Source: an uncultured Bacteroidales bacterium (GTDB taxonomy: Bacteria > Bacteroidota > Bacteroidia > Bacteroidales > Muribaculaceae). Taken from it: 64,000 nt of DNA. Positions within the stretch are counted from its first letter, which is position 1, and every line of letters begins with the position of its first letter. Of the stretch, positions 2,211 to 64,000 are shown one piece after another. The notes under the pieces were generated by a model, which saw only the letters and a list, made by a program, of their open reading frames with translations, ran no database searches and had not been told where the DNA came from. The DNA lies in NCBI GenBank assembly GCA_902774055.1, contig CACYGX010000005.1:1-64000 (forward strand), read 5' to 3'. A program made the position numbers and the translations under genes.

Positions 2211-3731
2211 ATGAAAAAGATAATAATGTTTTTAATGCTCTCATTGCTGGGTATGACTCAGATGGTGGCCCAGGATTACGAGTATGTTCCCTTCGTTCGC
2301 GAGGGTGTCAAATGGGTCTATATTTTCAATGAGGAGCCTTTCTGGAAACATACCTTCACTCTTGAGATGAAAGGCGATGCCGAGATCAACGGCAAGACTT
2401 ACAAGGTCATGCACAAGTACAGCGGAGAGGAGATCAACTGGGAAGACGACACGATTCCTGTTTACTTACGTGAGGATAACAAGGTGGTCTATGGCATTGT
2501 CCCGGACGGTAAGACCTATCCTGAATGTCCTGTCGGCATCGAAGGAAATCAGTCCATGATGGAGAAAATCGCCGCCGGTGAGGAGTTCATCCTGTATGAT
2601 TTCAACAATCCAGTGGAATTTGTTGAGGGTTGGCTGGAGAAACCCTCCTACTATTGGTGCTCGCTGATACCTGATATGACGACAGTAGGAGGCAAGAGTG
2701 CTAGACGCTTTATCAGCTTCAACAATTTCTGCTTTATTGAGGGAGTTGGGTATGATGGTTTAAGCAAGGTTTATCCTATTGCAATACAGAAATATACATT
2801 GAACTATGTAAAACTGGTTCATGTTGTGGAAAACGGAGAGGTAATATACAGTTCTGAAAGCAATAACGTCAATCCGAGTGGCATGATAGAACCTATTTTG
2901 CCTCTTGCTCGTGAAGGTGTTAAATGGGTCAACGAACATGTCACCATAGATAACGGAGACACGACACGTTATTACTATTCCTACGAGTTCAATGGTGTTA
3001 ATTATAGAAATCATCCGAGATGCTATTATTATACAGGAAGCGCCCTGGATTTGTCAACGGCGGTTTTATCCGCCAACTTTGAGATGTATGGTTATGACGA
3101 TGATGTTCGCCACAGTTATTATGTATATAATAACCCTGCATTCGAAAAAGTGGTAGAAGAGGGGCGTAATATGATGGGCTATGGGTCTCCATTCTCTGGT
3201 TGGTATGCAATGTACCAATTCAGTGAAACGCACTCCGCCGTGCAAATGACCAATACGGTGAATTACCATATCTTTAACCAGCGCGGTGACTACCTGAACC
3301 GCGAGAACTTCGTGGAGGTGGAGCCGCTGACGATCGAAGGGATGACCTGCCGCCGCTATGCCTACCTGGACGACAACGGTGAGCCGCTGGCCTACATCAC
3401 TGAGGGCATCGGCTTTGACAGCCGCGACCTGGGCGACCTGCTGACGCCGTTCACCCGCAAACCCGACCCCGATGCCGACCATCAGGAGTACTGGGGCCTG
3501 AGCCACGTCATCAAGGACGGCGAAATCATCTACAAGGGCATGCGCTATCATGAGGAAGAGGGCGACGTGAACGGTGACGGCACCGTAACGATCGCCGACG
3601 TGTCGGCCCTGATCGACCTGCTGCTGGAGAGCACCCCGATGTTCAAGCACAGCTATGACGTGAACGGCGACGGCAGCGTTACCATCGGCGACGTGTCCTC
3701 CCTGATCGACAAACTGTTATCAGCCAACTAA
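2211..3731 (+). CDS. Secreted protein with C-terminal dockerin-like repeat pair
   Basis: 506 residues from the ATG at 2211. A longer frame exists upstream, but this Met begins a clean signal peptide (MKKIIMFLMLSLLGMTQMVAQ). The mature part holds two copies of a ~200-residue unit, each opening with the motif REGVKWV. The C-terminus (~450-506) carries two dockerin type I-like calcium loops (DVNGDG...VTI.DVS.LID) that pair as in a dockerin module. No catalytic motif is recognised in the repeated units. The last ~480 bases are much richer in G+C than the middle: 3421-3480 is ~73% by hand count, 3001-3060 ~40%. The product is presumably exported and tethered through the dockerin-like end; its partner is unknown. 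Confidence 0.75.
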   Translation: MKKIIMFLMLSLLGMTQMVAQDYEYVPFVREGVKWVYIFNEEPFWKHTFTLEMKGDAEINGKTYKVMHKYSGEEINWEDDTIPVYLREDNKVVYGIVPDGKTYPECPVGIEGNQSMMEKIAAGEEFILYDFNNPVEFVEGWLEKPSYYWCSLIPDMTTVGGKSARRFISFNNFCFIEGVGYDGLSKVYPIAIQKYTLNYVKLVHVVENGEVIYSSESNNVNPSGMIEPILPLAREGVKWVNEHVTIDNGDTTRYYYSYEFNGVNYRNHPRCYYYTGSALDLSTAVLSANFEMYGYDDDVRHSYYVYNNPAFEKVVEEGRNMMGYGSPFSGWYAMYQFSETHSAVQMTNTVNYHIFNQRGDYLNRENFVEVEPLTIEGMTCRRYAYLDDNGEPLAYITEGIGFDSRDLGDLLTPFTRKPDPDADHQEYWGLSHVIKDGEIIYKGMRYHEEEGDVNGDGTVTIADVSALIDLLLESTPMFKHSYDVNGDGSVTIGDVSSLIDKLLSAN

Positions 3732-3881
3732 TCAATAGAGCCGTCCCGTCTCCCTGCGGCTTGACACTACATTACTGCATTTTACCTTGTGCCCCGGGCA
3801 AGCCCCAGGGTTCAAACGAAGTGAGGGAGAAAATCATTCAAAATAGTATGCATAGGTTTCTGGAAAGGCACATTTTGAGTC

Positions 3882-3924
3882 AAGCCCGCTGGTAGCGTCC
3901 ACCGCCTCCGGCGGGCTTCTTCTT
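3882..3924 (+). terminator. Terminator hairpin after the dockerin gene
   Basis: AAGCCCGC (3882-3889) pairs with GCGGGCTT (3911-3918), and the stem is followed by the pyrimidine tract CTTCTTTC. It lies 150 bases past the stop codon. The U-run is weak, so strength is uncertain. Confidence 0.55.
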
Positions 3925-3962
3925 TCGGCGGATTAAGCGGATTATAAGGATTTCTGAGTTTA

Positions 3963-4118
3963 TTTTCAAACAACATCTACAACAAACAACAACTCAAACA
4001 ACAAGAATTTAAACGACAAGAAAGACAATAAATACAACTTATTAATTAACAGCTATTTATAAAATAAAAAGTTGTTTTAGTTGTTCACCGTTGTTCCTGT
4101 TGTTTGAAAAACCCCGCG
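3963..4118. repeat. Palindromic ~150-bp interspersed repeat, copy 2
   Basis: Near-duplicate of bases 1-149, in the same orientation, with about ten extra bases in the centre (GAAAGACAATAAAT region). Both arms end in the same GTTGTTTGAAAAACCCCGCG words. The two copies bracket the regulator and dockerin genes. Confidence 0.75.
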
Positions 4119-4153
4119 TCAGCCCCGCCTAACGCCTAAAAGGGTATGTAAAC

Positions 4154-4184
4154 AAAAAAGGAGCTGAACGTGTCAACTCCTTTT
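4154..4184 (-). terminator. Terminator of tRNA-Gln
   Basis: On the minus strand AAAAGGAG and CTCCTTTT pair around a 13-base loop and run into TTTTTTG. It starts a few bases past the tRNA 3' end, as expected for a rho-independent terminator. Confidence 0.75.
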
Positions 4185-9924: not shown

Positions 9925-12774
9925 CTATCTCTCCCAAGTGAACACAAAGTGACCTCCACTATAATAAGTACCATCTTTTTCCAATATGAAGTTAACGTCA
10001 TAGGTGTTGCCATCTTTTGTTATGTAGCAGTATTGAGGATAATTATTCATCCAATAAGCATAGTAACCCCAATAGTTGAGCGAAGGACCATCATCAACAC
10101 TGATGCTACCATCATCGTTCAGCGTAAATACCCAGTTGGCGGTATCTCCCTGGCCTTCGGCGTAGTTACTCGGGTAAGCATAAGCCAACGGAGAATAAAT
10201 ACAATAGGTATTAGTACCTTCCATTTTCAGAACCGGGACATTGCTAGCACTGTAGCCACTTTCCTCCCAAGTGTAGTCAGTAAAAGTACATGTTCCAGCA
10301 TCTTCCCATTCAGCGGCCATTAGACCCTTGAAAGTAATTTCGGTTGAAGTGATTTGAGGCTGTCCTGGAATTGCCGTCGCAATGTCAGCATTCGAGAGTT
10401 TGAGCACACAAGAATAGGTGTCCATGGGCGAGATATTGTAACAATAAACTTCGACCTGAGTTGTGAGTTCACCATCCCTGAATAAGGCATTTCCGTCCCC
10501 AATATTAATATTGTCGGCTGTGGTTTCTAACGACAATACAGCCCGATAGTCGCCTTGTGAAACTTGACGCGTCAGAGTAACCCAAACCGAACAGTCATAG
10601 CGGTTGGTGCAGATGCCTTGGTAGGACGCGGCCCCAAAAGAGATATGCTGGCCTGCAGGATTTCCATTCTCGCACTTGACCTCGACATTGGTCGAGAGGA
10701 TTCGCCCGCTCATGGAACCATTATTGATGTCATAAGGTGAAAGGCTCAGTGTACAAGTATAGGTTCTTCCGAGTTCTAAGTAGGAACCTGTAACGGTGAC
10801 TTCGGCAGTATTCTCACCATCATGGAAAATAACTACCGTACTTGCCCTCAATACGTTGGAATTGGTCACATTAATCGGCACAGCATACTGACCGCTGGTT
10901 GTGGAACGAGTCAACGTCAATGTGTATTCAAACGAACTAGCTGCCGTATTGATATGATATTCAGCCTGAGAGAACGACACATTCTGTTCTCCAGTAGAGA
11001 TGCCGCTACCATCGGGATAATCGCCCAACGGATTCTGGTCATAGTTGATGCTCATGTTATCGCTTTCCATAAACTCAGTATATGGAATCGTCAATACCCA
11101 AGGATAGCTCTCGGGATCCTGCAGTGAACGGCTTGCTAACTGCAAGTCTGCGGGCCAGCCATCCTCTTCGGTGCGCTGGAAGCCCTGACGCAGGCGGCGG
11201 ATGGTGTAGATGCGGCCATCCTCGCCCCACAACTCGATGCGGCGTTGAATCAGGATTTCTTCAAGGAGCGAGCCGGTTTCATCGGTGGTTAAAGTGCCCA
11301 ATGCGGTACCAGTCTTGGTACAAGAGTAGTTGGGGTCACGCTTAGCCATCAACTGCGTCAGGTAATTCTTGGCCGCGGTGGGCTGATTGCTGCGGCATGC
11401 AGCCTCAGCGGCAGTGAGGTACATTTCCTCGACACGCATCCAGATGTAGTCGCCATCCCACTCGGTCCCATCAACAATGGCAAACTTCTGCTGCACATAG
11501 CCATTATTGGGGCCAATTCCAGTATCATTGGCTCTCCACCAAGCCAAGCGGGCATCGGTGCTACTCATCTTGTCATACAGCCAGAGGGATATCATCTTGG
11601 GAGCACGTGCACCATATCCCTTTGTGGTGACCATGTGAGAAAAAAACGAGGCATACATACCCACCTCTTCCGTAGGAATATCAGCACCCCACATCACGTT
11701 GCCTGCATGAGCATCATTCACACCCATGAACGCATCCACGTCCTGAATGGCCTTACCACTAGCGGTAATAGCGCTTACGGCAGCGCTGTAGGCTGTGCTC
11801 CAATCTTCCTTAACCAGAGCTATGCGCGCCTTGAGACCCAATGCCACTGCATAGCCGATGTGGTCAGGCACCAACTGCGTTGTACCATTCAGCAACGAGA
11901 CTGCCTGATTGATGTCGGCATTAATCTGATTATAGACTTGGGCCACGGTCGAACGGGGTGCGCCCGTTGAACCATTGAAGGCCACCCCAGTGAACAAGGG
12001 CACACAGGGGTCACTCTCATGGCCCTTATAGGTGCGTGCAAACGACTGGGCAAGCATGAAGTAACTATAGGCGCGGATGGCATAGGCCTGACCCTTGATA
12101 TAGTTTAACTCACTTGACGTTCCTGTCATCGATTGTGAGGCCTCAAGGATGTAGTTGGCATTGGCAATCCATGTGTAATAGGCGGTCCACAGGTCATAGC
12201 TACGCCAACTGGATGAAGTGTAACGATTCTTTAAGTTATAGGTAGCATCAAACCAGAACCAACCTGAACCCTGAGCTCCCATAATCATGTCATCGCCCAT
12301 GACCTCGGCCATCAGGTTATAGGCGCTGATGCCGAAACATTGATGCCAGTTTCCCGTGGTGGACCAGCCAGCAGTGCGCATCGAGCGGTAGATTTCGTTC
12401 AGGTCATTCAAGGCTTTGTCATAACTATAGTTTGTTGAGCCGTCCAATAGCATATCGATGAGAACACTCACATCGGCAATGGTGACCTCACCATCTTGAT
12501 TGGCGTCGGCGCCCGAAAAATACCCAGTTGTGCCTTCTAACAACATATCAATCAGCACACTCACGTCGGCGATGGACACTTGTGCATCGCAGTTCGCGTC
12601 ACCAGGCTGCGGAGCCATCGGCACCATAGTTCTGGCCTTGAGTTTCACCTCTTGGGCCCCATCCTCAGTAAACTTTGCTGGAGAACTGACACGCTGGCCC
12701 AATGCAGTCGTCGACGTGCAGAACACAACAATCAACAAGAGGATTGATTTGAGTAAGTAATTACGTGTTTTCAT
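9925..12774 (-). CDS. SusD/RagB-like surface protein with N-terminal dockerin pair
   Basis: 949 residues from the ATG at 12774; the frame extends ten codons further, but this Met starts the signal peptide. Order of parts: signal peptide (1-26); two dockerin-like calcium loops at ~58-111 (IADVSVLIDMLL in both); a SusD/RagB-like helical domain at ~116-580, with typical segments YIKGQAYAIRAYSYFML and RRIELWGEDGRIYTIRRL; two tandem beta-sandwich repeats of ~95 residues (~580-790, each opening VSF/ISF and containing YTLTLTR or VWVTLTR); and a C-terminal beta domain with DGSISVDDG. SusD proteins normally are lipoproteins paired with a SusC transporter. Here no SusC is nearby and the lipobox is not canonical. 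The module order is unusual. Probably outer-membrane or extracellular. Confidence 0.8.
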   Translation of the reverse strand: MKTRNYLLKSILLLIVVFCTSTTALGQRVSSPAKFTEDGAQEVKLKARTMVPMAPQPGDANCDAQVSIADVSVLIDMLLEGTTGYFSGADANQDGEVTIADVSVLIDMLLDGSTNYSYDKALNDLNEIYRSMRTAGWSTTGNWHQCFGISAYNLMAEVMGDDMIMGAQGSGWFWFDATYNLKNRYTSSSWRSYDLWTAYYTWIANANYILEASQSMTGTSSELNYIKGQAYAIRAYSYFMLAQSFARTYKGHESDPCVPLFTGVAFNGSTGAPRSTVAQVYNQINADINQAVSLLNGTTQLVPDHIGYAVALGLKARIALVKEDWSTAYSAAVSAITASGKAIQDVDAFMGVNDAHAGNVMWGADIPTEEVGMYASFFSHMVTTKGYGARAPKMISLWLYDKMSSTDARLAWWRANDTGIGPNNGYVQQKFAIVDGTEWDGDYIWMRVEEMYLTAAEAACRSNQPTAAKNYLTQLMAKRDPNYSCTKTGTALGTLTTDETGSLLEEILIQRRIELWGEDGRIYTIRRLRQGFQRTEEDGWPADLQLASRSLQDPESYPWVLTIPYTEFMESDNMSINYDQNPLGDYPDGSGISTGEQNVSFSQAEYHINTAASSFEYTLTLTRSTTSGQYAVPINVTNSNVLRASTVVIFHDGENTAEVTVTGSYLELGRTYTCTLSLSPYDINNGSMSGRILSTNVEVKCENGNPAGQHISFGAASYQGICTNRYDCSVWVTLTRQVSQGDYRAVLSLETTADNINIGDGNALFRDGELTTQVEVYCYNISPMDTYSCVLKLSNADIATAIPGQPQITSTEITFKGLMAAEWEDAGTCTFTDYTWEESGYSASNVPVLKMEGTNTYCIYSPLAYAYPSNYAEGQGDTANWVFTLNDDGSISVDDGPSLNYWGYYAYWMNNYPQYCYITKDGNTYDVNFILEKDGTYYSGGHFVFTWER

Positions 12775-13138
12775 ATCATCAATTATGGCCAATGCAGTCC
12801 TCAATGGCGACTAATGAATATACAAGGGAAACGTGAACTGATTTGCCCCTCTGCCATTCAGGCACCTGAAACGGGCAAACGCTTCCGCAACATTGATTAC
12901 AACAGTTTATTTATTGGCAAAGATATAGTTATCGTCCTGGCCCCTGCGGGGCTAATGCGAATTATGCGAATTTATCAAATAATTGCTTTCTCGTGAAATT
13001 GGCTCTTTAGCTAAATTCGCATTAAAAAACTTTCAGGATCAACTTCCATATCCTGCCCTTAATTATTGGCAAAGATAATAGGGTTAACTGACAATTCCAA
13101 ATATTTATCCCGTTTTTGCTAGCAGATTCCTAAAAATA
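12775..13138. other. Long leader region of the SusD-like gene
   Basis: No gene is supported here. On the minus strand it holds two -7-like elements sharing the words TTATTGGCAAAGATA on the plus strand (12918-12925 and 13070-13077). Between them lie a GGCCCC/GGGGC palindrome near 12940 and a TAATGCGAATT (12955-12965) versus AATTCGCATTA (13013-13023) inverted repeat. This suggests a structured leader of up to ~290 bases. Confidence 0.5.
13070..13101 (-). promoter_or_regulatory. -33/-7 promoter for the SusD-like gene
   Basis: Minus-strand TTTG (complement of 13098-13101) and TATCTTTG (13070-13077) are 20 bases apart. A second TATCTTTG at 12918-12925 is closer to the gene and could be an alternative start. 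Confidence 0.55.
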
Positions 13139-13168
13139 CGGCTCCAAAACCTAAATGTCTTGGAGCCG
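13130..13168 (-). terminator. Terminator of glgB
   Basis: CGGCTCCAA (13139-13147) pairs with TTGGAGCCG (13160-13168); on the minus strand the stem is followed by TATTTTTAGG. It begins ten bases beyond the glgB stop. Confidence 0.8.
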
Positions 13169-13177
13169 TCGTAATGG

Positions 13178-15241
13178 TTATTTTTTCTTTGCTGTCGGTT
13201 TTCGGGCTGTAGCCTTTCGTCGTGGAGCCTTCAGGCGCAACACCTGGGCGCTGCGGGCAGGCAGGTAGAGTTTGAGCCATCCCAAATGGGCATCGGCATA
13301 CAGGCCGTCATACTCGGTGAAATGCTTCACATCGCCATCAATGTTCCCATAGCCTCCATAGCGGGCATTGTCACTGTCAAAGACGCCCTCGTACTCGCCC
13401 TCGGGCGCCAGCATGGGATAATCCACGTGGGACTCGGTGGGGCTGAAGTTATAGACAAACACGAGATTGCCGCGCATATAGGCCAGCACCTGGTCATCAT
13501 CCTTGTCCCAAAGTTTGCGCACAGGCAGTTGCTGGAAGTTCTTCACGCCACCGATGAGGTGAATCATATCGTTGTCCCAGTTGTTGAGGAACTGGTATTT
13601 CAAGTCCTCACGGTCCACGAGGTCCCACTGGCGGCGAGCATACTTGTAACTCCAGCCGTTACCCTCGCGGGGGAAGTCAATCCACTCGGGATGTCCCCAC
13701 TCGTTGCCCATGAAGTTGAGGTAAGCGCCATTGATGAGCGAAGCGGTCACCAGACGAATCATCTTGTGCAGCGCCATGCCACGGTCAACGGTTCCGTCGT
13801 GGTCATCGGTCATCATGTGCCAGTACATCTCCTTGTCGATGAGGCGGAAGATGATGGTCTTGTCGCCCACGAGGGCTTGGTCGTGACTCTCGGCGTAGGA
13901 AACGGTCTTCTCGTCGGCACGGCGGTTAGTCAGTTCCCAAAAGATCGAGGTGGGTTTCCACTCCTCGTCCTTGCGTTCCTTGATGGTCTTGATCCAGTAG
14001 TCGGGGATACCCATCGCCATACGGTAGTCAAAGCCGATACCACCATCCTTGAATGTGCGTGCCAAGCCTGGCATACCGCTCATCTCCTCGGCAATAGTGA
14101 TGGCATGCGGATTGATGGTGTGGATCAACTCATTGGCAAGTGTGAGGTAGGTGATAGCATTGGTGTCCTCGCCTCCGTTATAATAGTCGTCATAACTGCC
14201 AAAGGCCTGTCCCAAACCATGACTGTAGTAGAGCATTGAGGTCACGCCATCGAAACGGAAGCCGTCAAACTTATATTCCTCCAGCCAGAACTTGCAGTTG
14301 GACAACAGGAAGTTGAGCACGGCGTTCTTGCCATAATCAAAGCACAAGGAGTCCCAAGCCGGGTGCTCGCGCTTGCCGTCGCCATAGAAGTAGAGGTCGC
14401 CCGTTCCGTCAAAGCAGCCTAAGCCCTCAACCTCGTTTTTCACCGCATGGGAGTGGACAATATCCATGATGACGGCCACACCCTGGGCGTGAGCGTCGTC
14501 GATGAGGTGCTTCAGTTCCTCGGGGGTGCCGAATCGTGACGAGGCGGCATAGAAACTCGACACATGGTAGCCGAATGAGCCGTAATAAGGATGTTCCTGA
14601 ATGGCCATGATCTGGATGGCGTTGTAACCGTCGGCGACGATGCGCGGCAGCACGTTCACACGGAATTCCTCGTAAGTGCCGACGCCCTCGCGGTTCTGGG
14701 CCATGCCAATGTGGCACTCATAGATCAACAACGGCTTGGTGTTGGGCACAAAGTCCTTGACCTTGAACTCATAGGGCTGCTCAGGTGACCACACTTGGGC
14801 CGAGAAGATGTAGGTCTTCTCGTCTTGAACCACACGCGTGGCATAGGCTGGGATGCGTTCTCCCTCCCCACCCTGCCAGTGGACGCGAAGTTTGTACAAG
14901 TCACCATGACGCATGGCACGCTTGGGCAGTTTAATCTCCCAGTTGCCATTTTCCAGACGTTTCATCTTATAGGGGGCACATTCACGCCAATCGTTGAACT
15001 GCCCGATGAGATAAATGTCGGTAGCATTGGGGGCCCATTCACGGAACACCCAACCGCCATCCTCTGTACGGTGCAGACCATAGTAGTTATAAGCGTTAGC
15101 AAACTCCACAAGCTTGCCGGTTCCGCCTGTAAGTTCGGCTATCTTGTTCACAGCATCCTGATGGCGCCCGTTGATAGCCTCACTGTAGGGTTCCAGCCAA
15201 GGGTCATCGTTGATAATCGCAAGATTCTTTTTCTTTCTCAT
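13178..15241 (-). CDS. glgB: 1,4-alpha-glucan (glycogen) branching enzyme
   Basis: 687 residues. It makes alpha-1,6 branches in glycogen. An N-terminal CBM48-like domain (~55-155) precedes a GH13 barrel. Visible catalytic motifs: DIVHSH (260-265), the nucleophile Asp331 in GFRFDG, the acid/base Glu385 in AEEMSGMP, and SHDQ with Asp454. Length and motif wording resemble the eukaryotic-type (GH13_8) branching enzymes common in Bacteroidetes rather than E. coli GlgB. A basic tail (RRKATARKPTAKKK) follows the last beta domain and is not part of the family core. The gene is monocistronic by spacing, with its own -7 element and terminator; no other glycogen gene is in the window. Confidence 0.95.
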   Translation of the reverse strand: MRKKKNLAIINDDPWLEPYSEAINGRHQDAVNKIAELTGGTGKLVEFANAYNYYGLHRTEDGGWVFREWAPNATDIYLIGQFNDWRECAPYKMKRLENGNWEIKLPKRAMRHGDLYKLRVHWQGGEGERIPAYATRVVQDEKTYIFSAQVWSPEQPYEFKVKDFVPNTKPLLIYECHIGMAQNREGVGTYEEFRVNVLPRIVADGYNAIQIMAIQEHPYYGSFGYHVSSFYAASSRFGTPEELKHLIDDAHAQGVAVIMDIVHSHAVKNEVEGLGCFDGTGDLYFYGDGKREHPAWDSLCFDYGKNAVLNFLLSNCKFWLEEYKFDGFRFDGVTSMLYYSHGLGQAFGSYDDYYNGGEDTNAITYLTLANELIHTINPHAITIAEEMSGMPGLARTFKDGGIGFDYRMAMGIPDYWIKTIKERKDEEWKPTSIFWELTNRRADEKTVSYAESHDQALVGDKTIIFRLIDKEMYWHMMTDDHDGTVDRGMALHKMIRLVTASLINGAYLNFMGNEWGHPEWIDFPREGNGWSYKYARRQWDLVDREDLKYQFLNNWDNDMIHLIGGVKNFQQLPVRKLWDKDDDQVLAYMRGNLVFVYNFSPTESHVDYPMLAPEGEYEGVFDSDNARYGGYGNIDGDVKHFTEYDGLYADAHLGWLKLYLPARSAQVLRLKAPRRKATARKPTAKKK

Positions 15242-33454: not shown

Positions 33455-35878
33455 ATGACAAAACGATTCCTTTTAGCAGCACTGATTGCTATGGCAGGTG
33501 TTTTGGGTTATGCACAGCAGACCATGTGGGTTCACACGGGCCATGTGCATTGGGCCTATAACACCGAAACGGTGGGAACGATGCCGTATTCCTCGGCAAG
33601 TCTGCTCACCGTGCTTGAGAAGGGTTTCACCCTTGCCGATGTGGACAGTGTGACTGTCGCCAGCGAGACGTTTGCCGACGACAATGTCCTCGTCAAGTAC
33701 AACAACACAGTGGCCGACGTGTATGTGGCCGGCAACATCGCCAACCACATCACCGCTGAGGTCAACGGCGCGCGCGTTGCCGTCATGCAAGACGCTGATG
33801 TCGCCACCGAGTACACCTACACCCTGCAGGGTAGTAGCACCAGCGGCTGCTTCTACCATGCCGGATTTTACAAGATGACGCTCGCCCTGAATGGCGTGAA
33901 CCTCACCAACCCCGACAGCGCGGCCATCAACATCCAGAACAGCAAGCGCATCGCCGTACAACTCGTTGACGGCACGACCAACACGCTGGCCGACGGTGCC
34001 AACAACACCAAGAAGGCCGCCTTCCTTGTTAAGGGCCATGCCGAGTTTGCCAAGGGTGGTTCACTGACCATCACGGGTAACAAGAAGCATGCTCTGGCCT
34101 GCAACGAGTACATGGAGGTGAAGAAGACCGTAGGTACCATCACCATCGTCAGTGCGGTGGCCGACGCCATCAACGTGGCCCAGTACTTCCAGATGAACGG
34201 CGGTACCATCAACATCCAGAGTTGCGGTGACGACGGCATCCAGGTTGACGCCGAGGACACTGCCGATCCCGAACTTGACGGCCACGTCCTCATCAAGGAC
34301 GGAACGCTCACCATCAACGGCAGCGCGGCAGGCACCAAGTGCATTAAGGCCGAGGGCAACGTGGATATCCAGGGCGGCACTTTGACCTTGAAGCACACGG
34401 GTATTCCCGTTTGGGACACCGACAAGAGCAAGATCAAGGAAGCTACTGGTATCGGCACCGACCGCAACCTCACCATCAATGGCGCTGAGGCCATCGTAAA
34501 CATCACCATGACCGGTAACGGTGCCCGCGGCATGAAGTGCGACAGTACCATGACCGCTACCGCCGGCACCATCGACCTCAACTGCTCGGGTGGTGACTGG
34601 GCTTATAGCACAGTTGACACCAGCAGTGTGAAGTGCGCCAAGGCCGACTATGCCTTCATCCTGAACGGTGCCAACATGAAGTGCACCACCATCAAGGACG
34701 AGGCAGTGGGCGTTCACAGCGAGGGTACCGTCCTCATCAGCGACGGCACGCTGACGCTCAACACCTATGACCACGGTATCAAGAGCGACTATGACATGGA
34801 GATTACCGGCGGCACCATCACCTACAACATCAATGGCCCCGCCAGCAAGGCGCTCAAGTGCGAGGGCAACCTGCACATCAATGGCGGCAATATCAGCGGT
34901 ACTGTGAGTGGCGGTGGCGAGACGGCCAGTGACCAGACGACCAGTGCCAGCGCCGGCATCAAGGCCGATGGCAACGTGACCATCGACGGCGGTACCTTTG
35001 ACCTAAAGGCCACCGGTCAGGGCGACAAGGGCATGAGCATCGACGGCGAGCTCATCATCAACGACGGTAACATCAAGGTGACCACCACAGGCACTCGCTA
35101 CGGCCAGGCCAGCAGTGGCGGCGGCATGGGCCCCGGTGGCGGTGGTTCGACGAACAGCGACAGGCGTTCCTCGCCTAAGGGCATCAAGGTGGACGGCAAC
35201 ATCACCATCAACGGTGGCACCATCACCGTGAGCACTACTGGCGGCGAGGGTGCCGAGGGCATCGAGTCCAAGAGCGTCATGACTGTCAATGGTGGCTATA
35301 TCGAGATAACCAGCTATGACGATGCGTTGAACAGCGCTTCACACATGTATCTCAAGGGTGGTTACATCTATGCCGTTGCCACTGGCAATGATGCTATCGA
35401 TGCCAACGGCAATTTGAACCTTGACGGTGGCTATATTTACGCTGCTGGCCGTGAAGAAGCCTTTGATGCCAATGAGCAATACAAGCTTTATGTCAATAGT
35501 GGCGTTTCCTTCATTGCCTATGGTGCCACGATGGGTGCACTCGAAAGTGGTGCACAACTCAATCAGACCTGCTATAGCGCATCGACCTATAGCGGAGGTT
35601 CACGCTATGCACTCTATAACGGCAACCAAGTAGCATTTGCTGTGACTGCAGCTACCATTTCTGGCGGAGGCCCTGGCTTTATCGCAGGACCTGGTGGCCC
35701 TGGCGGCAATAGCGCAGCGTTCGTTGTTTCTTCGCCCTCCTCAACTGCGCTCAAGTCGGGCGTGACCTTCAGCGGCACTACCTTCTGGACTGGCAAGGGC
35801 GCTACCAGCGCTACGGGCGGTTCATCGGTAACACTCTCACAGTATACCGACAATGGTGGTCAAAATCCCTGGTGGTAA
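33455..35878 (+). CDS. Cthe_2159-family (DUF4353) beta-helix carbohydrate-binding protein
   Basis: 807 residues. A signal peptide (1-~20) precedes a long series of beta-helix rungs, many opening with a phrase like ITINGGTI, VTIDGGTF or LNLDGGYIY. The N-terminal block contains the Cthe_2159 family phrases NPDSAAINIQNSKRIAVQLVDGT and KAAFLVKG. The family was named for a Clostridium thermocellum surface protein that binds acidic or cellulosic polysaccharide. A Gly/Ser-rich loop lies near residues 550-570, and the C-terminus is rich in Gly-Pro-Gly. No catalytic residues are evident. It is followed by a small dockerin protein, while paralogues at 59.7-62.3 kb are smaller. Probably cell-surface or released; ligand unknown. 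Confidence 0.85.
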   Translation: MTKRFLLAALIAMAGVLGYAQQTMWVHTGHVHWAYNTETVGTMPYSSASLLTVLEKGFTLADVDSVTVASETFADDNVLVKYNNTVADVYVAGNIANHITAEVNGARVAVMQDADVATEYTYTLQGSSTSGCFYHAGFYKMTLALNGVNLTNPDSAAINIQNSKRIAVQLVDGTTNTLADGANNTKKAAFLVKGHAEFAKGGSLTITGNKKHALACNEYMEVKKTVGTITIVSAVADAINVAQYFQMNGGTINIQSCGDDGIQVDAEDTADPELDGHVLIKDGTLTINGSAAGTKCIKAEGNVDIQGGTLTLKHTGIPVWDTDKSKIKEATGIGTDRNLTINGAEAIVNITMTGNGARGMKCDSTMTATAGTIDLNCSGGDWAYSTVDTSSVKCAKADYAFILNGANMKCTTIKDEAVGVHSEGTVLISDGTLTLNTYDHGIKSDYDMEITGGTITYNINGPASKALKCEGNLHINGGNISGTVSGGGETASDQTTSASAGIKADGNVTIDGGTFDLKATGQGDKGMSIDGELIINDGNIKVTTTGTRYGQASSGGGMGPGGGGSTNSDRRSSPKGIKVDGNITINGGTITVSTTGGEGAEGIESKSVMTVNGGYIEITSYDDALNSASHMYLKGGYIYAVATGNDAIDANGNLNLDGGYIYAAGREEAFDANEQYKLYVNSGVSFIAYGATMGALESGAQLNQTCYSASTYSGGSRYALYNGNQVAFAVTAATISGGGPGFIAGPGGPGGNSAAFVVSSPSSTALKSGVTFSGTTFWTGKGATSATGGSSVTLSQYTDNGGQNPWW

Positions 35879-35929
35879 TTCCTCAAGTAGTTATAAACAA
35901 TGACATCATTATTAAAAAGATTCAAGATT

Positions 35930-36361
35930 ATGAAAAAGACGATTATAACGATGCTTATCGCACTGGTGGCCATGACCATCAGCGCCGAGACCTATAGCTA
36001 CCTGAAGTTCACCAAGACCGACAACTCGACTGTGACCTATTCGGTAGAAGGCCTCAAGCTCACCTATGATAATACGAACGTGACCATCACCAACGCCGAG
36101 GGCACCTCAAAGTTGCCCCTGGCCCAGGTGAAGGACATGGAGTTCACGAATGACGCCGGAAGCACACCTACCTTCAAGAAAGGTGACGTGAACATGGACG
36201 GCGAAGTTACCATTGCCGACGTGTCGGCGCTCATTGACTACCTGTTGACGGGCGACGCCACCGGCATCGACACTGCAGCAGCAGACGTGAACACAGATCA
36301 AGAAGTTTCTATTGGAGACGTTTCGGCACTGATTGACATGTTGCTGAACGGCGAAGCATAG
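35930..36361 (+). CDS. Small free-standing dockerin-repeat protein
   Basis: 143 residues from the ATG at 35930, which begins a clean signal peptide (MKKTIITMLIALVAMTISAE); the ten upstream codons are not needed. Residues ~21-80 are a small beta domain (YLKFTKTDNSTVTYSV, LPLAQVKDMEF) of a kind often placed before the repeats in these bacteria. The rest (~90-141) is a dockerin-like pair: DVNMDGEVTIADVS and DVNTDQEVSIGDVS, the second loop having Gln in place of the conserved Gly. It lies 51 bases after the beta-helix gene and is probably cotranscribed, so it may act as an adaptor for it (inference). Confidence 0.75.
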   Translation: MKKTIITMLIALVAMTISAETYSYLKFTKTDNSTVTYSVEGLKLTYDNTNVTITNAEGTSKLPLAQVKDMEFTNDAGSTPTFKKGDVNMDGEVTIADVSALIDYLLTGDATGIDTAAADVNTDQEVSIGDVSALIDMLLNGEA

Positions 36362-59667: not shown

Positions 59668-61032
59668 TCAATAGATGACCTCGAAGAGGCGGGGGTCGCT
59701 GTTGGTAAGGGAGGTATAGCCCCCAGCAACGATGGGTTTGTGGTCCTCGGTGCCATCCACGTCAACGGCGAGGCCATTAGGAGCACAGCTGTAGAATGAA
59801 CCGCCCTGAATGATGCAGTCGGTATCACACTTCACTCCCTTTGGAGCCACTGTCAACTGTTTGCCGGTTACCACGACATTGAGTTCGCCGCCGGAGAACG
59901 TAAACGGCTGAGACACGTTAATGCCCTTAGCGTCATCGCCGGTACACTTGATGTTGAGCGTTCCTCCCGACATTGTGATGCTGTGGTCGGCCTTTACTCC
60001 TGCTGCACCCGTCGAGACGGGATTGCCCAGAGTGTCGGTTTCCAGCTTAGTGGTTGCCGTGTTGATGATGGTCGTGCGGCCGCCCGTGATGTTGATGAGG
60101 CTGTCGCAGTTGATGCCCTTGGCGCCATCGGCGGCAATTTCCATGTTGATGACACCACCCTTAATGTGGACATAGTCCTTGGCCTTGATGCCATGACCGC
60201 TAGTGCTGTTGAGGTACAATTTTGTGCCTGGACGCACCAACACATAGTCGTCACTGGCCATGCAGTGCCTGCCGACGCTGTAGATATTGAGTAAGCCCTT
60301 GCCGCTGAGAAGAATCTGTCCCTCGCTGAAGAGAGCCCCCTTCTGGTCCTCGCCCTCGGTCATCTCGTAGGTCTCACCATCACGCAGGGTGTTGGTCGTG
60401 CCCTCGTTGACCACGACATAGAGCGACTTGCCGCACTGGTTATTGACTGCGGCCCCATGAGGGTTGGTGATGTCCACACCATTGAGTTGAAGCTGGAACT
60501 TGCGCTCACTGTAGAACTTCAAGGAACCGTCATCGGTCGTGCCCGTCACGATAAAACGCACGCGCTTGGCAGCGTTAGTGATGGTGACATGGGCTCCATC
60601 GACCCTTACAACAACACTGCTGGGATTGCCTGTCACCGTTGCCGTATTGCCGTCAAAGACGATATTGACCGTAGTTGCCCAAGTTGTATTCTCGACAAAG
60701 TCGCCATAGTCGGGGGCATCCTCGTCCTCGGTGATGCTCTCGGCAGGTTCGGTGAGTTCGCTGTCGTCCAAGGTGATTTCCTTGGGTGTGATATCGTCCT
60801 CGCTGCCACCTGTCAAGATAATATTAATCACGGCGTTCACGTCGCTGATGGTAACCTCGCCATCGCCATTCACGTCGCCGTCAATACCCGTATTTCCCGA
60901 CAGGATGATGTTAATCACAGCATTCACGTCGCTAATGGTGACCTCGCCGTCACCGTTCACGTCGCCTGTCACTGCACCCACGGGTAAGCACCAAGCAGTC
61001 ATCAGCAATAATGCAAGCAATAATTTCTTCAT
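59668..61032 (-). CDS. Dockerin pair fused to Cthe_2159-family beta-helix domain
   Basis: 454 residues. Signal peptide (1-~20), then two identical dockerin-like loops (GDVNGDGEVTISDVNAV, ~23-44 and ~52-73), an acidic linker (~75-115), and a Cthe_2159 domain (~115-454) with NPHGAAVNNQCGKSLYVVV, KGALFSEGQILLSGKG and repeated GG-centred rungs (IKGGVINMEI, MSGGTLNIKC). It is the last gene of a minus-strand operon starting with the VTC polyphosphate polymerase. It is secreted, but lacks a lipobox, unlike its upstream paralogue. Function unknown; the fusion parallels the separate neighbours at 33.4-36.4 kb. Confidence 0.85.
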   Translation of the reverse strand: MKKLLLALLLMTAWCLPVGAVTGDVNGDGEVTISDVNAVINIILSGNTGIDGDVNGDGEVTISDVNAVINIILTGGSEDDITPKEITLDDSELTEPAESITEDEDAPDYGDFVENTTWATTVNIVFDGNTATVTGNPSSVVVRVDGAHVTITNAAKRVRFIVTGTTDDGSLKFYSERKFQLQLNGVDITNPHGAAVNNQCGKSLYVVVNEGTTNTLRDGETYEMTEGEDQKGALFSEGQILLSGKGLLNIYSVGRHCMASDDYVLVRPGTKLYLNSTSGHGIKAKDYVHIKGGVINMEIAADGAKGINCDSLINITGGRTTIINTATTKLETDTLGNPVSTGAAGVKADHSITMSGGTLNIKCTGDDAKGINVSQPFTFSGGELNVVVTGKQLTVAPKGVKCDTDCIIQGGSFYSCAPNGLAVDVDGTEDHKPIVAGGYTSLTNSDPRLFEVIY

Positions 61033-61052
61033 CGTTCTGGTTGTTTGCTTAA

Positions 61053-62267
61053 TTAGTAAGATATCGTGATTACTCTGATACCCTTGTCATAGGTCTTATA
61101 GCCGCTAGCCACCTGAAGCGTTCCGCTCACCTCCAGCGGGTCACTGAGACGGCTGTAAGTATAAAAGTAGCCGCCACTGATGCTGAAATCGCCGTCAATC
61201 TTTACACCCTTAGCCTTCTTGAGCTTGCTGGTACCAGTGGCCACAGCCTGGAACGAGCCACCCGTGATGACAACGTTGTGCTTGGCATTCAGTCCCTTGC
61301 CGCCGTCGCCAGTAGCCTTGAACTTGAGCGTGCCGGCGTTGACAGTCACCAGCGTGTCGCAATAGAGTGCCGCACAGGCCGTGGTGTCAGCCAAGCCTTC
61401 ATCGGTGGTACTCTCTCTAGTGTCACCGATGCTGATGGAAATGAGGCGTCCGCCGTCGACCGTCATCACGCCCCCACTGCGCACACCCTTAGCGCCCTCG
61501 CCATCAGTCAGCACATTAATCACACCGCCATCGATGGTGATGCCGTCGTTGGCACGCAGGCCATCGAGCGCGTGGCTCTCGATATAAAGATTCACGCCAG
61601 GACGGATGCGAATGTAGTCGTCGCTGCGGATTGCACCGCGCCCCTCGGCAAAGACATCAAGGCGTCCCTTGCCGCTGAAGACGATTTGTCCCTCGCTGAA
61701 GAGAGCAGCCTTCTGGTCCTCCTCGTCAACCATGTCATAGTCAGCGCCATCCTTCAGCTGGTTTTTCGTACCATCGGCCATGACTATATAGAGCGTTTTG
61801 CTACCCTGGTTGTTGATGGCTGCGCCATGCGGATTGGTAATCTTGGCGCCGTTGAGCAAAATCTGGAAACGCTTGTCGCCATAGAACTTCAAGGAGCCGT
61901 TAGCGGTCTGACCGCTGACCACAAACTTTACAGGGCCCGACATATTCACTACCGTGATGTGGTCACCATCGGCCTGTACCGTCACGCCGGGAACCGTGCC
62001 GGTCACCACAGGCGTCTCGCCGCCAAAGTTGATATTGATGACCTTGTCCCATTGGGTGTTCTCAACATAGTCGTTATAGGCAGGGTCGTCCTCGTCGGTC
62101 ACGGGCACATCGGGTGCTTCATCCAAAGCCGAAAAATCCAACTCGATGCTGGCCGGCTCGACCTGATATTGGGCGATAATATCGCTAAAATCGGTATCAT
62201 CGTTCTGGCACGACACCAGCGTGATACCTGCTAACATAACCAATAAGGCGTATATAATCTTTCTCAT
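61053..62267 (-). CDS. Cthe_2159-family lipoprotein
   Basis: 404 residues. The signal peptide ends in TLVSC (Cys20), followed by Gln-Asn-Asp, a probable surface-going lipoprotein. An acidic linker (~22-70) precedes the Cthe_2159 domain: NPHGAAINNQGSKTLYIVMADGT, KAALFSEGQIVFSGKG, then rungs such as ITIDGGVINV and MTVDGGRLISI. It is clearly paralogous to the dockerin-bearing gene 20 bases downstream, but with a lipid anchor in place of the dockerin pair. Confidence 0.87.
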   Translation of the reverse strand: MRKIIYALLVMLAGITLVSCQNDDTDFSDIIAQYQVEPASIELDFSALDEAPDVPVTDEDDPAYNDYVENTQWDKVININFGGETPVVTGTVPGVTVQADGDHITVVNMSGPVKFVVSGQTANGSLKFYGDKRFQILLNGAKITNPHGAAINNQGSKTLYIVMADGTKNQLKDGADYDMVDEEDQKAALFSEGQIVFSGKGRLDVFAEGRGAIRSDDYIRIRPGVNLYIESHALDGLRANDGITIDGGVINVLTDGEGAKGVRSGGVMTVDGGRLISISIGDTRESTTDEGLADTTACAALYCDTLVTVNAGTLKFKATGDGGKGLNAKHNVVITGGSFQAVATGTSKLKKAKGVKIDGDFSISGGYFYTYSRLSDPLEVSGTLQVASGYKTYDKGIRVITISY

Positions 62268-62282
62268 ATCGCTTCTATTGTA

Positions 62283-63038
62283 TCAGAATTTATAGGCATA
62301 ACCCAAGCCCAGCATGTGGATGTTGGGTTCATCACTGCTACCGCTCACCTGGCCCCGGTAATAGAGCTTGAAGTTGTGTTTCTTCTTTAAACTGTGGTTT
62401 ACGCCCACCAGGAAGCGGGTCTTTTCCAACTCTCGGGTCGTGTGAAACTCCACGCTTGCAAAGGGGTCAAACTTACACTTGGGGATGTCCCACTCCACTT
62501 GCAGGCGGCTGCGCAGGACATTCTTGCCCTTACCTTTCACCTCATGGTCCTCCCACAGGCCCTCGTCGAAGTCAAAGTTGTCGATCATCTTACTGGGGCG
62601 GTAGGTATATTGCCAGCGCTCACGCAGGCTTACCTCCACACGCCTGATCTTATAACTTGCCGTGAGCGCGAGGTTGAAGCGGTGGCGCAGTCCCCAATAG
62701 CTGGGACGCCAGTTGTTGAAGCTCACGCCGTCCTTCTGATACTTGATCTCTTCGCGGTTGTTGTCGATGAGCAGGACGTAGCCCGCACTGGCCTTGAGCC
62801 ACGGCAGCACCTTGTAACTGACGTCACCGCCGATGCTCACACGGTCGGCCGTGCGAAAGTCATTGCGCGAGCGAAATTCTGCTTCCAGTCCGGCACTCAA
62901 CTTCTTGGAAAACTTGTGTGATGCCTCAATAGTAGCAACTAACCCGGCATCGTCGGCATGGGACAATGTCGGGAATAATGTTGCACACAAGAGGGTCAAC
63001 AGCAGGGTTGTCAGTTGTTTTCTTTTACTTCTTGCCAT
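62283..63038 (-). CDS. DUF2490 outer-membrane beta-barrel-like protein
   Basis: 251 residues. A signal peptide (1-~28) is followed by alternating amphipathic strands ending in an aromatic C-terminus (LGLGYAYKF), as in outer-membrane barrels. DUF2490 phrases include EAEFRSRNDFRTADRVSIGGDVSYKV and RERWQYTYRPS. The ATG lies 28 bases inside the DUF4956 gene, so the two are translationally coupled. Specific function unknown; context suggests a pore or anchor for the polyphosphate/Cthe_2159 operon. Confidence 0.82.
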   Translation of the reverse strand: MARSKRKQLTTLLLTLLCATLFPTLSHADDAGLVATIEASHKFSKKLSAGLEAEFRSRNDFRTADRVSIGGDVSYKVLPWLKASAGYVLLIDNNREEIKYQKDGVSFNNWRPSYWGLRHRFNLALTASYKIRRVEVSLRERWQYTYRPSKMIDNFDFDEGLWEDHEVKGKGKNVLRSRLQVEWDIPKCKFDPFASVEFHTTRELEKTRFLVGVNHSLKKKHNFKLYYRGQVSGSSDEPNIHMLGLGYAYKF

Positions 63039-63751
63039 TCGTCTCGGTGGATTTTCAATGTGTTGTTAACGTGGCTCCCGCCACCACCATCGTTCTCATA
63101 CTCAATCTTGAGGATGGCGGTGTCCTTGAGAAAGTCGATGGAGCCCACTTTCACCTTGGTAATATTCAGGCCCGTGCGCTTGTGCAGGTCCTCAAGCAGT
63201 TCCTCACGGCGTTCGGGCGTAATGAGTTCGATGCGGTCATAGAGCACCAGTTTACTGGCCAAATTGGCACGCAGAACAAAGGTCTCGAACAACCAAATGA
63301 GAACTGCAATCGCCACATTGGGCACCAGCAGTTCGACAAAACTCAACGAGTCGGCCAGCGCGTTGATGACCGAGAGGCTGATGACACCAAACATATAGGA
63401 CATCTCGCGCACAGGGATCGTCTCGGTGCGGTATCGTAGCACGCCAAAGATGGCGAACAGTCCTAACGCGAAGCCGATCTTTACTTTGACGCTGCCCAGC
63501 AGGTAAATGAGGAAAAAGATGCTCACACTGAGCAGCACGAGAGTAAAGAAATAGTCGCGGCGGTGGGTCTTACGGTAATAGAGAAAATAAACAATGATGA
63601 ACAACACCAGCATGAAGAAGCCGAAGCGTATCAACATCTCGCTGACACCTGCAGCATCAAACCACCTGAAGTCCATCGCAGTCGCGGTGGCGACCTCATG
63701 AACGGCACCAGCAATGCCGTCTTCTAATCCTAGATCTTGTAGTAGTATCAT
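63011..63751 (-). CDS. DUF4956 membrane protein
   Basis: 246 residues. Four to five membrane spans occupy ~38-165 (LIRFGFFMLVLFIIVYFLYY onward), with the DUF4956 phrase FALGLFAIFGVLRYRTETIPVREMSYMFGVISLSVINAL. The C-terminal ~80 residues form a cytoplasmic ferredoxin-like fold. DUF4956 genes are commonly found beside VTC-type polyphosphate polymerases, as here (55 bases downstream of one). Role unknown. Confidence 0.9.
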   Translation of the reverse strand: MILLQDLGLEDGIAGAVHEVATATAMDFRWFDAAGVSEMLIRFGFFMLVLFIIVYFLYYRKTHRRDYFFTLVLLSVSIFFLIYLLGSVKVKIGFALGLFAIFGVLRYRTETIPVREMSYMFGVISLSVINALADSLSFVELLVPNVAIAVLIWLFETFVLRANLASKLVLYDRIELITPERREELLEDLHKRTGLNITKVKVGSIDFLKDTAILKIEYENDGGGGSHVNNTLKIHRDEWQEVKENN

Positions 63752-63806
63752 TCTTATTTCGATTATTTAGCCATTATCATTCATGTCCATCAATCACAGG
63801 ATGCCA

Positions 63807-64000
63807 TTAATTCATGGAAGAGAGCATGCGATCCACCATGTGCAAGCGCTCCTTGAAATTGTTGCGCTTGAGGGCCGGATTGGTCAGCGCCGAGCCCATG
63901 CAGTACTTGCTGAAACCGCTGGGCTTGATGCGCAACTCACGCAGCATCCCCAGGATGGGCGAGTGCTGCAAGCCATCACGCTTCAACTCGATGATAACCA
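63807..64000 (-). CDS. VTC-domain polyphosphate polymerase, C-terminal part
   Basis: The last 63 codons of a gene that continues beyond the window. The readable end (VIIELKRDGLQHSPIL, then GFSKYCMGSALTNP and FKERLHMVDRML) matches the C-terminus of VTC-domain proteins, where the IELK strand carries tunnel Glu and Lys residues. In yeast VTC makes polyphosphate from ATP; bacterial relatives next to DUF4956 are poorly studied. It is the most upstream visible gene of this operon. The call rests on a short segment plus the diagnostic DUF4956 neighbour. Confidence 0.75.
   Translation of the reverse strand, partial: VIIELKRDGLQHSPILGMLRELRIKPSGFSKYCMGSALTNPALKRNNFKERLHMVDRMLSSMN

Follow-up and report, generated by a model that had tools for sequence, protein, structure and literature searches.

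The first 64,000 bases of a 345,419-base contig from an uncultured Bacteroidales bacterium of the Muribaculaceae (CACYGX010000005.1, here C5), which we refer to as the window, end in an operon of five minus-strand genes. These encode a VTC-type polyphosphate polymerase, a DUF4956 inner-membrane protein, a DUF2490 protein, a Cthe_2159 lipoprotein and a secreted protein in which a Cthe_2159 region is joined to a dockerin. We propose, tentatively and with doubt still outweighing confidence, that this operon encodes a polyphosphate polymerase-exporter with polyanion-binding beta-helices at the cell surface. The open reading frames (ORFs) are tightly packed, with gaps of 55, −28, 15 and 20 bases, and their coordinates bear out the cluster described in the initial annotation of the window. 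The families named there agree with Pfam, except that the VTC fragment within the window (ORF 63807-63998, with the gene running on from position 64001) scores on its own 16.6 bits, under the Pfam cut-off of 23.

Since the contig extends beyond the window, the VTC gene could be completed. The whole gene, also recorded as L002:8808-9599, is a complete ORF encoding 263 residues, and its product matches PF09359 at 91.8 bits over positions 1-233 of 235, well inside the family. A search of solved structures with this single protein returned chance matches only, while a profile built from 13 relatives aligned weakly with yeast Vtc4 (3g3q, E 0.015). Residues K28, R87 and R89 face Vtc4 K200, R264 and R266 in a positive-scoring stretch of this alignment (residue numbers derived by hand from offsets), and E204 faces E426 in a second stretch; because that stretch scores below zero, the latter pairing rests on the shared E-x-K and SK-Y/F context. 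All four residues are invariant among the 13 relatives. Changing R264, R266 and E426 is reported to inactivate Vtc4 (PMC9911596). The initial annotation would have been undermined by an upstream gene that lacked catalytic residues when completed; the completed gene keeps the tunnel-type residues aligned with K200, R264 and R266, and less securely that aligned with E426, and the proposal therefore survives on this point. We found neither an SPX sensor nor a fused Vtc1-type membrane domain: the VTC match spans nearly all of the 263 residues, and SPX gave no match in Pfam (searched with the VTC fragment) or in NCBIfam (searched with the whole protein). Seven bases separate the VTC ATG from TATATTTG (L002:9614-9607), which we take to resemble the Bacteroidales −7 box.

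The C-terminal family of PPK1 was found above cut-off in none of the 37 genomes of the genus, several of them incomplete (one, G024, has a single match below cut-off), and in 16 of 24 genomes from elsewhere in the order. Within a search that covered VTC and PPK1, VTC is therefore the sole polyphosphate polymerase that we can identify in the genus.

Gene order was compared across these genomes, the window's own included, and around the best 80 of 575 confirmed Bacteroidales loci, a named set that leans towards the query. Locus genes were called with profiles grown from the window proteins, by which distant members can be missed. DUF4956 is present in 36 of the 37 genus genomes and 13 of the 24 others. 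Among the 36, all five genes stand in order in 20, the first four in 6 and only the first three in another 6 (among them G031, whose genes lie at the end of their contig); in G017 the contig breaks off before VTC is reached, one genome has DUF2490 and Cthe_2159 upstream of VTC, and two have no DUF2490 in the run. In the 13 DUF4956-bearing genomes outside the genus, VTC lies upstream in 9, downstream in 1 and was not detected nearby in 3; DUF2490 is found in 5, and 3 carry a second DUF4956 match without VTC. Cthe_2159 proteins occur anywhere in the genome in all 37 genus members and in 3 of the 24 others. VTC and DUF4956 also go together in the 14 control genomes, matching in the same 3.

Around the named loci, VTC lies directly upstream of DUF4956 in 76 of 80, the exceptions being L100 (an in-frame scaffold gap), L142 (a contig end), L103 (no VTC match) and L163 (VTC on the opposite strand). 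For DUF2490, 70 loci have the gene on the same strand and 61 have it directly downstream. We detected 53 Cthe_2159 genes in 41 of the loci (in 34 of the 59 with full flanks), every one on the operon's strand; 28 loci have such a gene downstream and 15 have one upstream, and in 28 loci one is directly beside DUF2490. Because the same neighbours recur in relatives, the neighbourhood is more than chance, and the gene order put forward for checking proved to be conserved in the genus, with VTC-DUF4956-DUF2490 conserved in the order. The seven nearest named loci (78-88% DUF4956 identity) come from metagenome genomes, some labelled rumen or abomasum. The operon is also present in B. cellulosilyticus DSM 14838 and B. 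salyersiae DSM 18765, and BT3498-99 of B. thetaiotaomicron are a DUF4956 gene and a DUF2490 gene. Iron regulation of BT3498-99 was considered as support and dropped (−7.6-fold under iron depletion, P 0.175).

The predicted structure of the DUF4956 protein (predicted local distance difference test, pLDDT, 79) contains five long helices, several shorter ones and a small C-terminal alpha-beta domain, and matched no solved structure at E <= 0.001. Positions 61, 106, 108, 115, 167, 192 and 215 are lysine or arginine in at least 99% of 69 sequences, a length-filtered alignment of limited number made up of the window protein and 68 from the 80 loci (L093 and L129 were removed by hand). Yeast VTC couples synthesis to translocation, and basic residues line the channel concerned (PMC9911596); by analogy the basic residues of DUF4956 may line a channel too. 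An apparent VTC-DUF4956 fusion of 542 residues in L100 was rejected, as its two parts meet across a scaffold gap filled with N.

The DUF2490 protein is predicted with higher confidence (pLDDT 92.8, predicted template modelling score 0.81) as an all-beta structure of barrel type. With its N-terminal hydrophobic helix and C-terminal phenylalanine it has the predicted features of an outer-membrane barrel, closure and strand number being unsettled; the 11 long and 4 short strands listed by DSSP led us to give up a 12-strand description. Taking the more hydrophilic face of each strand to be the lumen, we counted 22 lysines and arginines vs 13 aspartates and glutamates over 82 positions in the window protein. 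The same face is net positive in all 61 sequences of a length-filtered alignment, limited in number (the window protein and 60 from the 80 loci), and positions 120, 176, 178 and 208 are lysine or arginine throughout. The outer-membrane barrel anticipated in the initial annotation is thus retained as a prediction, with a basic lumen added to it. Among the Foldseek matches listed, the best template modelling scores (TM-scores) belong to the autotransporter beta-domains of BrkA (0.58) and EstA (0.52), with further matches to NanC (0.44) and AlgE (0.38); VDAC chains, which top the list by E-value, were set aside (TMq 0.24). DUF2490 corresponds to TCDB 1.B.81, a family of putative porins whose functions are described as not established (PMC4827864). 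The window protein shares the Pfam family and the predicted outer-membrane barrel with that group, and differs from the published account in its operon setting and in the basic face of its lumen.

The Cthe_2159 lipoprotein matches its solved relative from Clostridium thermocellum (4peu/4phb; E 4e-11 to 4peu), which places it in the family. More widely, all 55 Cthe_2159 proteins in or near the operon match PF14262, and 9 of them carry a dockerin. Acidic starts after the lipobox cysteine mark surface lipoproteins in Bacteroidetes, and in several orthologues of the window lipoprotein the cysteine is followed by KDDTD or VKDDSD-like runs. The C. thermocellum protein is a beta-helix, and Cthe_2159 proteins are reported to bind cellulose and polygalacturonic acid, the latter a polyanion (PMC6712302). 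Although the window proteins belong to the same family by sequence, they are, unlike it, lipoprotein or dockerin-borne and encoded within a VTC operon. The window's genome encodes a third Cthe_2159 protein at 33455..35878, away from the operon; in the genus relatives G014, G003, G029, G012 and G005 a long Cthe_2159 gene instead adjoins VTC on its upstream side.

Together, these observations suggest how the operon might work. Its products would form a machine that spans the envelope and handles a phosphate polyanion, of which inorganic polyphosphate is the likeliest. VTC would polymerise phosphate from ATP on the cytoplasmic side of the inner membrane; DUF4956 would replace the membrane domains of the yeast Vtc proteins, receiving and translocating the chain; the DUF2490 barrel, with its basic lumen, would pass or hold the anion in the outer membrane; and the Cthe_2159 lipoprotein and the dockerin-Cthe_2159 protein would bind the polymer, or another acidic polymer, at the cell surface. 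What we infer is which polymer is made, which way it moves and what the surface proteins bind; the gene set with its conservation, the tunnel-type residues and the lack of above-cut-off PPK1 in the genus are observed, and the barrel and the charge of its lumen are predicted. That VTC and DUF4956 form a polymerase-translocator pair seems to us probable, if by a modest degree, while passage across the outer membrane and binding at the surface are each plausible steps that we would sooner doubt than assert. The initial annotation had already pictured a didermic system making a polyanion inside and displaying beta-helices that bind it outside; the VTC residues, the gene order, the predicted barrel and the lipobox of one Cthe_2159 protein lend support to that picture, whereas its use of the dockerin as a specific feature is not supported, as described below.

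The proposed system resembles the eukaryotic VTC complex (Vtc1/Vtc3/Vtc4), as described in PMC9911596, in combining a tunnel-type polymerase domain with a membrane partner that has conserved basic residues. Unlike that complex, it has a stand-alone 263-residue polymerase that lacks both SPX and a fused membrane domain, DUF4956 stands where the Vtc membrane domains would be, and outer-membrane and surface genes are added. The second precedent is the Gram-positive Pel accessory set: CotH, a polyphosphate polymerase, DUF4956 and DUF4832 adjoin pel genes in streptococci and clostridia (PMC7112168). The pairing of the polymerase with DUF4956 is therefore already in print beside CotH, and the window operon shares it; CotH, DUF4832 and pel are replaced here by DUF2490 and Cthe_2159. 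In the open-access literature searched we found no description, as a system, of the Bacteroidales form with its barrel and beta-helices.

Several observations weigh against the polymerase-exporter proposal. The likeness of VTC to Vtc4 is weak, most of all in the part bearing E426. With no fold match, DUF4956 is assigned a channel role by its position only. The basic lumen face of DUF2490, itself read from a model with no control barrels for comparison, would fit a path for anions and falls short of proving one. The reported ligands of Cthe_2159 proteins are plant polymers, not polyphosphate. None of the 13 DUF4956-bearing genomes outside the genus has Cthe_2159 in the run, and among the named loci 39 of 80 have no detected Cthe_2159 and 10 of 80 no same-strand DUF2490. 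This varying gene content could even mean that the genes merely adjoin one another and share no function. We consider that highly improbable, since the genes also recur in other arrangements, in which DUF2490 or Cthe_2159 precedes VTC, a recurrence that simple descent of one stretch would not explain, and all 53 Cthe_2159 genes agree in strand.

An unlikely but more substantial alternative is that polyphosphate made by VTC-DUF4956 stays in the cell or periplasm and DUF2490 and Cthe_2159 serve an acidic polysaccharide, plant pectin or a glycan of the cell's own, surface glycan binding being linked through the operon to phosphate or energy status. The cellulose and polygalacturonic acid binding reported for Cthe_2159 (PMC6712302) fits this, as do the rumen-type samples behind several of the nearest named genomes and the occurrence of VTC-DUF4956 without DUF2490 or Cthe_2159 in some genomes. 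The strand agreement and the 28 loci with a Cthe_2159 gene directly beside DUF2490 argue against such a division, and the neighbour clusters identified, which are not all of them, contain no recurring glycan hydrolase or lyase. The VTC-like enzyme might instead not be a polyphosphate polymerase here and might modify or regulate an exopolymer, in the manner of the set beside Gram-positive Pel clusters (PMC7112168); a C. perfringens locus is likewise reported to bring together polyphosphate polymerase-domain proteins, a CotH kinase, a glycosyltransferase and a polysaccharide deacetylase (PMC11677781). We regard this as distinctly unlikely, because VTC keeps the tunnel-type residues and because CotH, DUF4832 and an exopolymer synthase were found nowhere among the operon and upstream proteins scanned. 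The initial annotation had recommended looking for a CotH kinase; the operon and its contig have none, and the genome has 15 matches on other contigs. Finally, the autotransporter domains that head the DUF2490 TM-scores, and the position of the Cthe_2159 beta-helices directly beside DUF2490, raise the prospect that DUF2490 is a secretion or assembly partner of those proteins, a split relative of autotransporters, with the VTC pair supplying energy or chaperoning polyphosphate. This strikes us as quite improbable: many loci have DUF2490 without Cthe_2159, one Cthe_2159 protein is a lipoprotein with its own export route, and the resemblance, at 11-15% identity, is that of barrels in general.

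The dockerin calls for separate treatment. The plural "dockerins" of the initial annotation reduces to a single module with two calcium-loop repeats. Nor is the dockerin special to the operon: with 150 of 247 candidates scored, the window's genome holds 151 or more dockerin matches, so that finding one on a secreted protein says little about the operon. The same genome gave a single cohesin match (28.3 bits), not the many-cohesin scaffoldins of a cellulosome, although divergent cohesins could be missed. Many dockerins with very few cohesins are also reported in R. albus and R. bromii (PMC6118326); unlike those bacteria, the host here belongs to a didermic Bacteroidales genus, and in at least one shared small protein its dockerins occupy the position that type IX secretion system (T9SS) tails have in its kin. 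Counting per genome, and taking all counts as lower bounds, genus members have at least 29-89 dockerin matches and 3-15 T9SS-tail matches each. The 24 other genomes of the order have 0-2 dockerins in 23 cases and 38 in G039, and 27 or more T9SS tails in 20, the remaining four having 0, 0, 1 and 8.

The small shared protein illustrates the exchange. Small dockerin proteins like that at 35900..36361 lie just upstream of VTC in relatives, and small proteins near Cthe_2159 genes have an N-terminal domain in common (profile comparison, 97% probability, score 53.5, vs at most 13.6 in 40 column shuffles); the protein ends in a dockerin in the genus and in a T9SS tail in L099 and, by eye, in relatives of L099. 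The set for this comparison left out two unrelated fragments (from L044 and L036) as well as the window's small protein, and took in two further proteins, from L146 and L158. In those small proteins and hydrolases of relatives that were inspected by eye the dockerin is C-terminal, and it is N-terminal in the dockerin-Cthe_2159 protein. The exchange suggests that dockerins in the genus may do the surface attachment that T9SS tails perform in neighbouring lineages. Such attachment would need a partner. Candidates are the cohesin-like domains of two adjoining dockerin proteins in L172 (L172:1613-2269 and 2281-4173, on C8 of the window's genome), which may be divergent dockerin partners; one protein passes the Pfam cohesin model and the other was recognised by eye.

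Other genes were noted around the operon, the families of clustered neighbours being read from one representative each. A secreted protein of about 140 residues with a YD/RHS-like repeat lies immediately upstream of VTC in 22 of the 80 named loci (gap −8 to 44 bases; for example L109:6728-7129), and a recurring lipoprotein was found by clustering in 12. A LytS-type histidine kinase and a LytTR response regulator occur in 11, directly downstream and on the same strand in six (L100, at 11370-13407, L106, L117, L136, L151 and L162), where signal control of the operon is possible. Upstream of the window's operon, L002:10613-14274 (C5:65612-69273) encodes a secreted caspase-domain protein with Sel1 repeats, overlapping by 1 base the gene for a membrane protein that is CHASE2-like by eye. 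The CotH matches of the genome are at L084-L091 and C29, and at least one shares a frame with a dockerin (C25:20461-21777).

Table 1. Operon genes and related features in the window (positions in the 64,000-base stretch unless marked C5).
Feature	Position	Strand	Details
VTC polymerase gene, 3' end in window	63807..64000	-	whole gene C5:63807-64598, 263 aa; PF09359
DUF4956 inner-membrane protein, 246 aa	63011..63751	-	PF16316 178 bits; predicted model
DUF2490 predicted outer-membrane barrel, 251 aa	62283..63038	-	PF10677 97 bits; overlaps DUF4956 by 28 bases
Cthe_2159 lipoprotein, 404 aa	61053..62267	-	PF14262 138 bits; lipobox LVSC then QNDDTD
Secreted dockerin-Cthe_2159 protein, 454 aa	59668..61032	-	PF14262 136 bits, PF00404 47 bits
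Dockerin module, residues 23-73 of dockerin-Cthe_2159 protein	60814..60966	-	PF00404
Third Cthe_2159 protein of the genome, 807 aa	33455..35878	+	PF14262 239 bits
Small secreted protein, C-terminal dockerin, 153 aa	35900..36361	+	PF00404 46 bits
Example dockerins in the window	3561-3719, 36179-36346, 60814-60966		

The broadest form of our proposal is a dedicated bacterial polyphosphate machine across the envelope, with a polymerase coupled to a translocator in the inner membrane, a basic-lined pore in the outer membrane and surface beta-helices that would hold the exported chain; it would be the genus's main polyphosphate polymerase, and dockerins would fix its surface parts as T9SS tails do in neighbouring lineages. 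In this full form we consider it rather unlikely. Work on bacterial polyphosphate centres on PPK1, and here a genus without above-cut-off PPK1 keeps a yeast-like VTC in a conserved envelope operon. The presence of the operon in named Bacteroides makes the production or export of polyphosphate by the VTC route in gut Bacteroidales testable by gene deletion, and DUF4956 and DUF2490 would gain a function.

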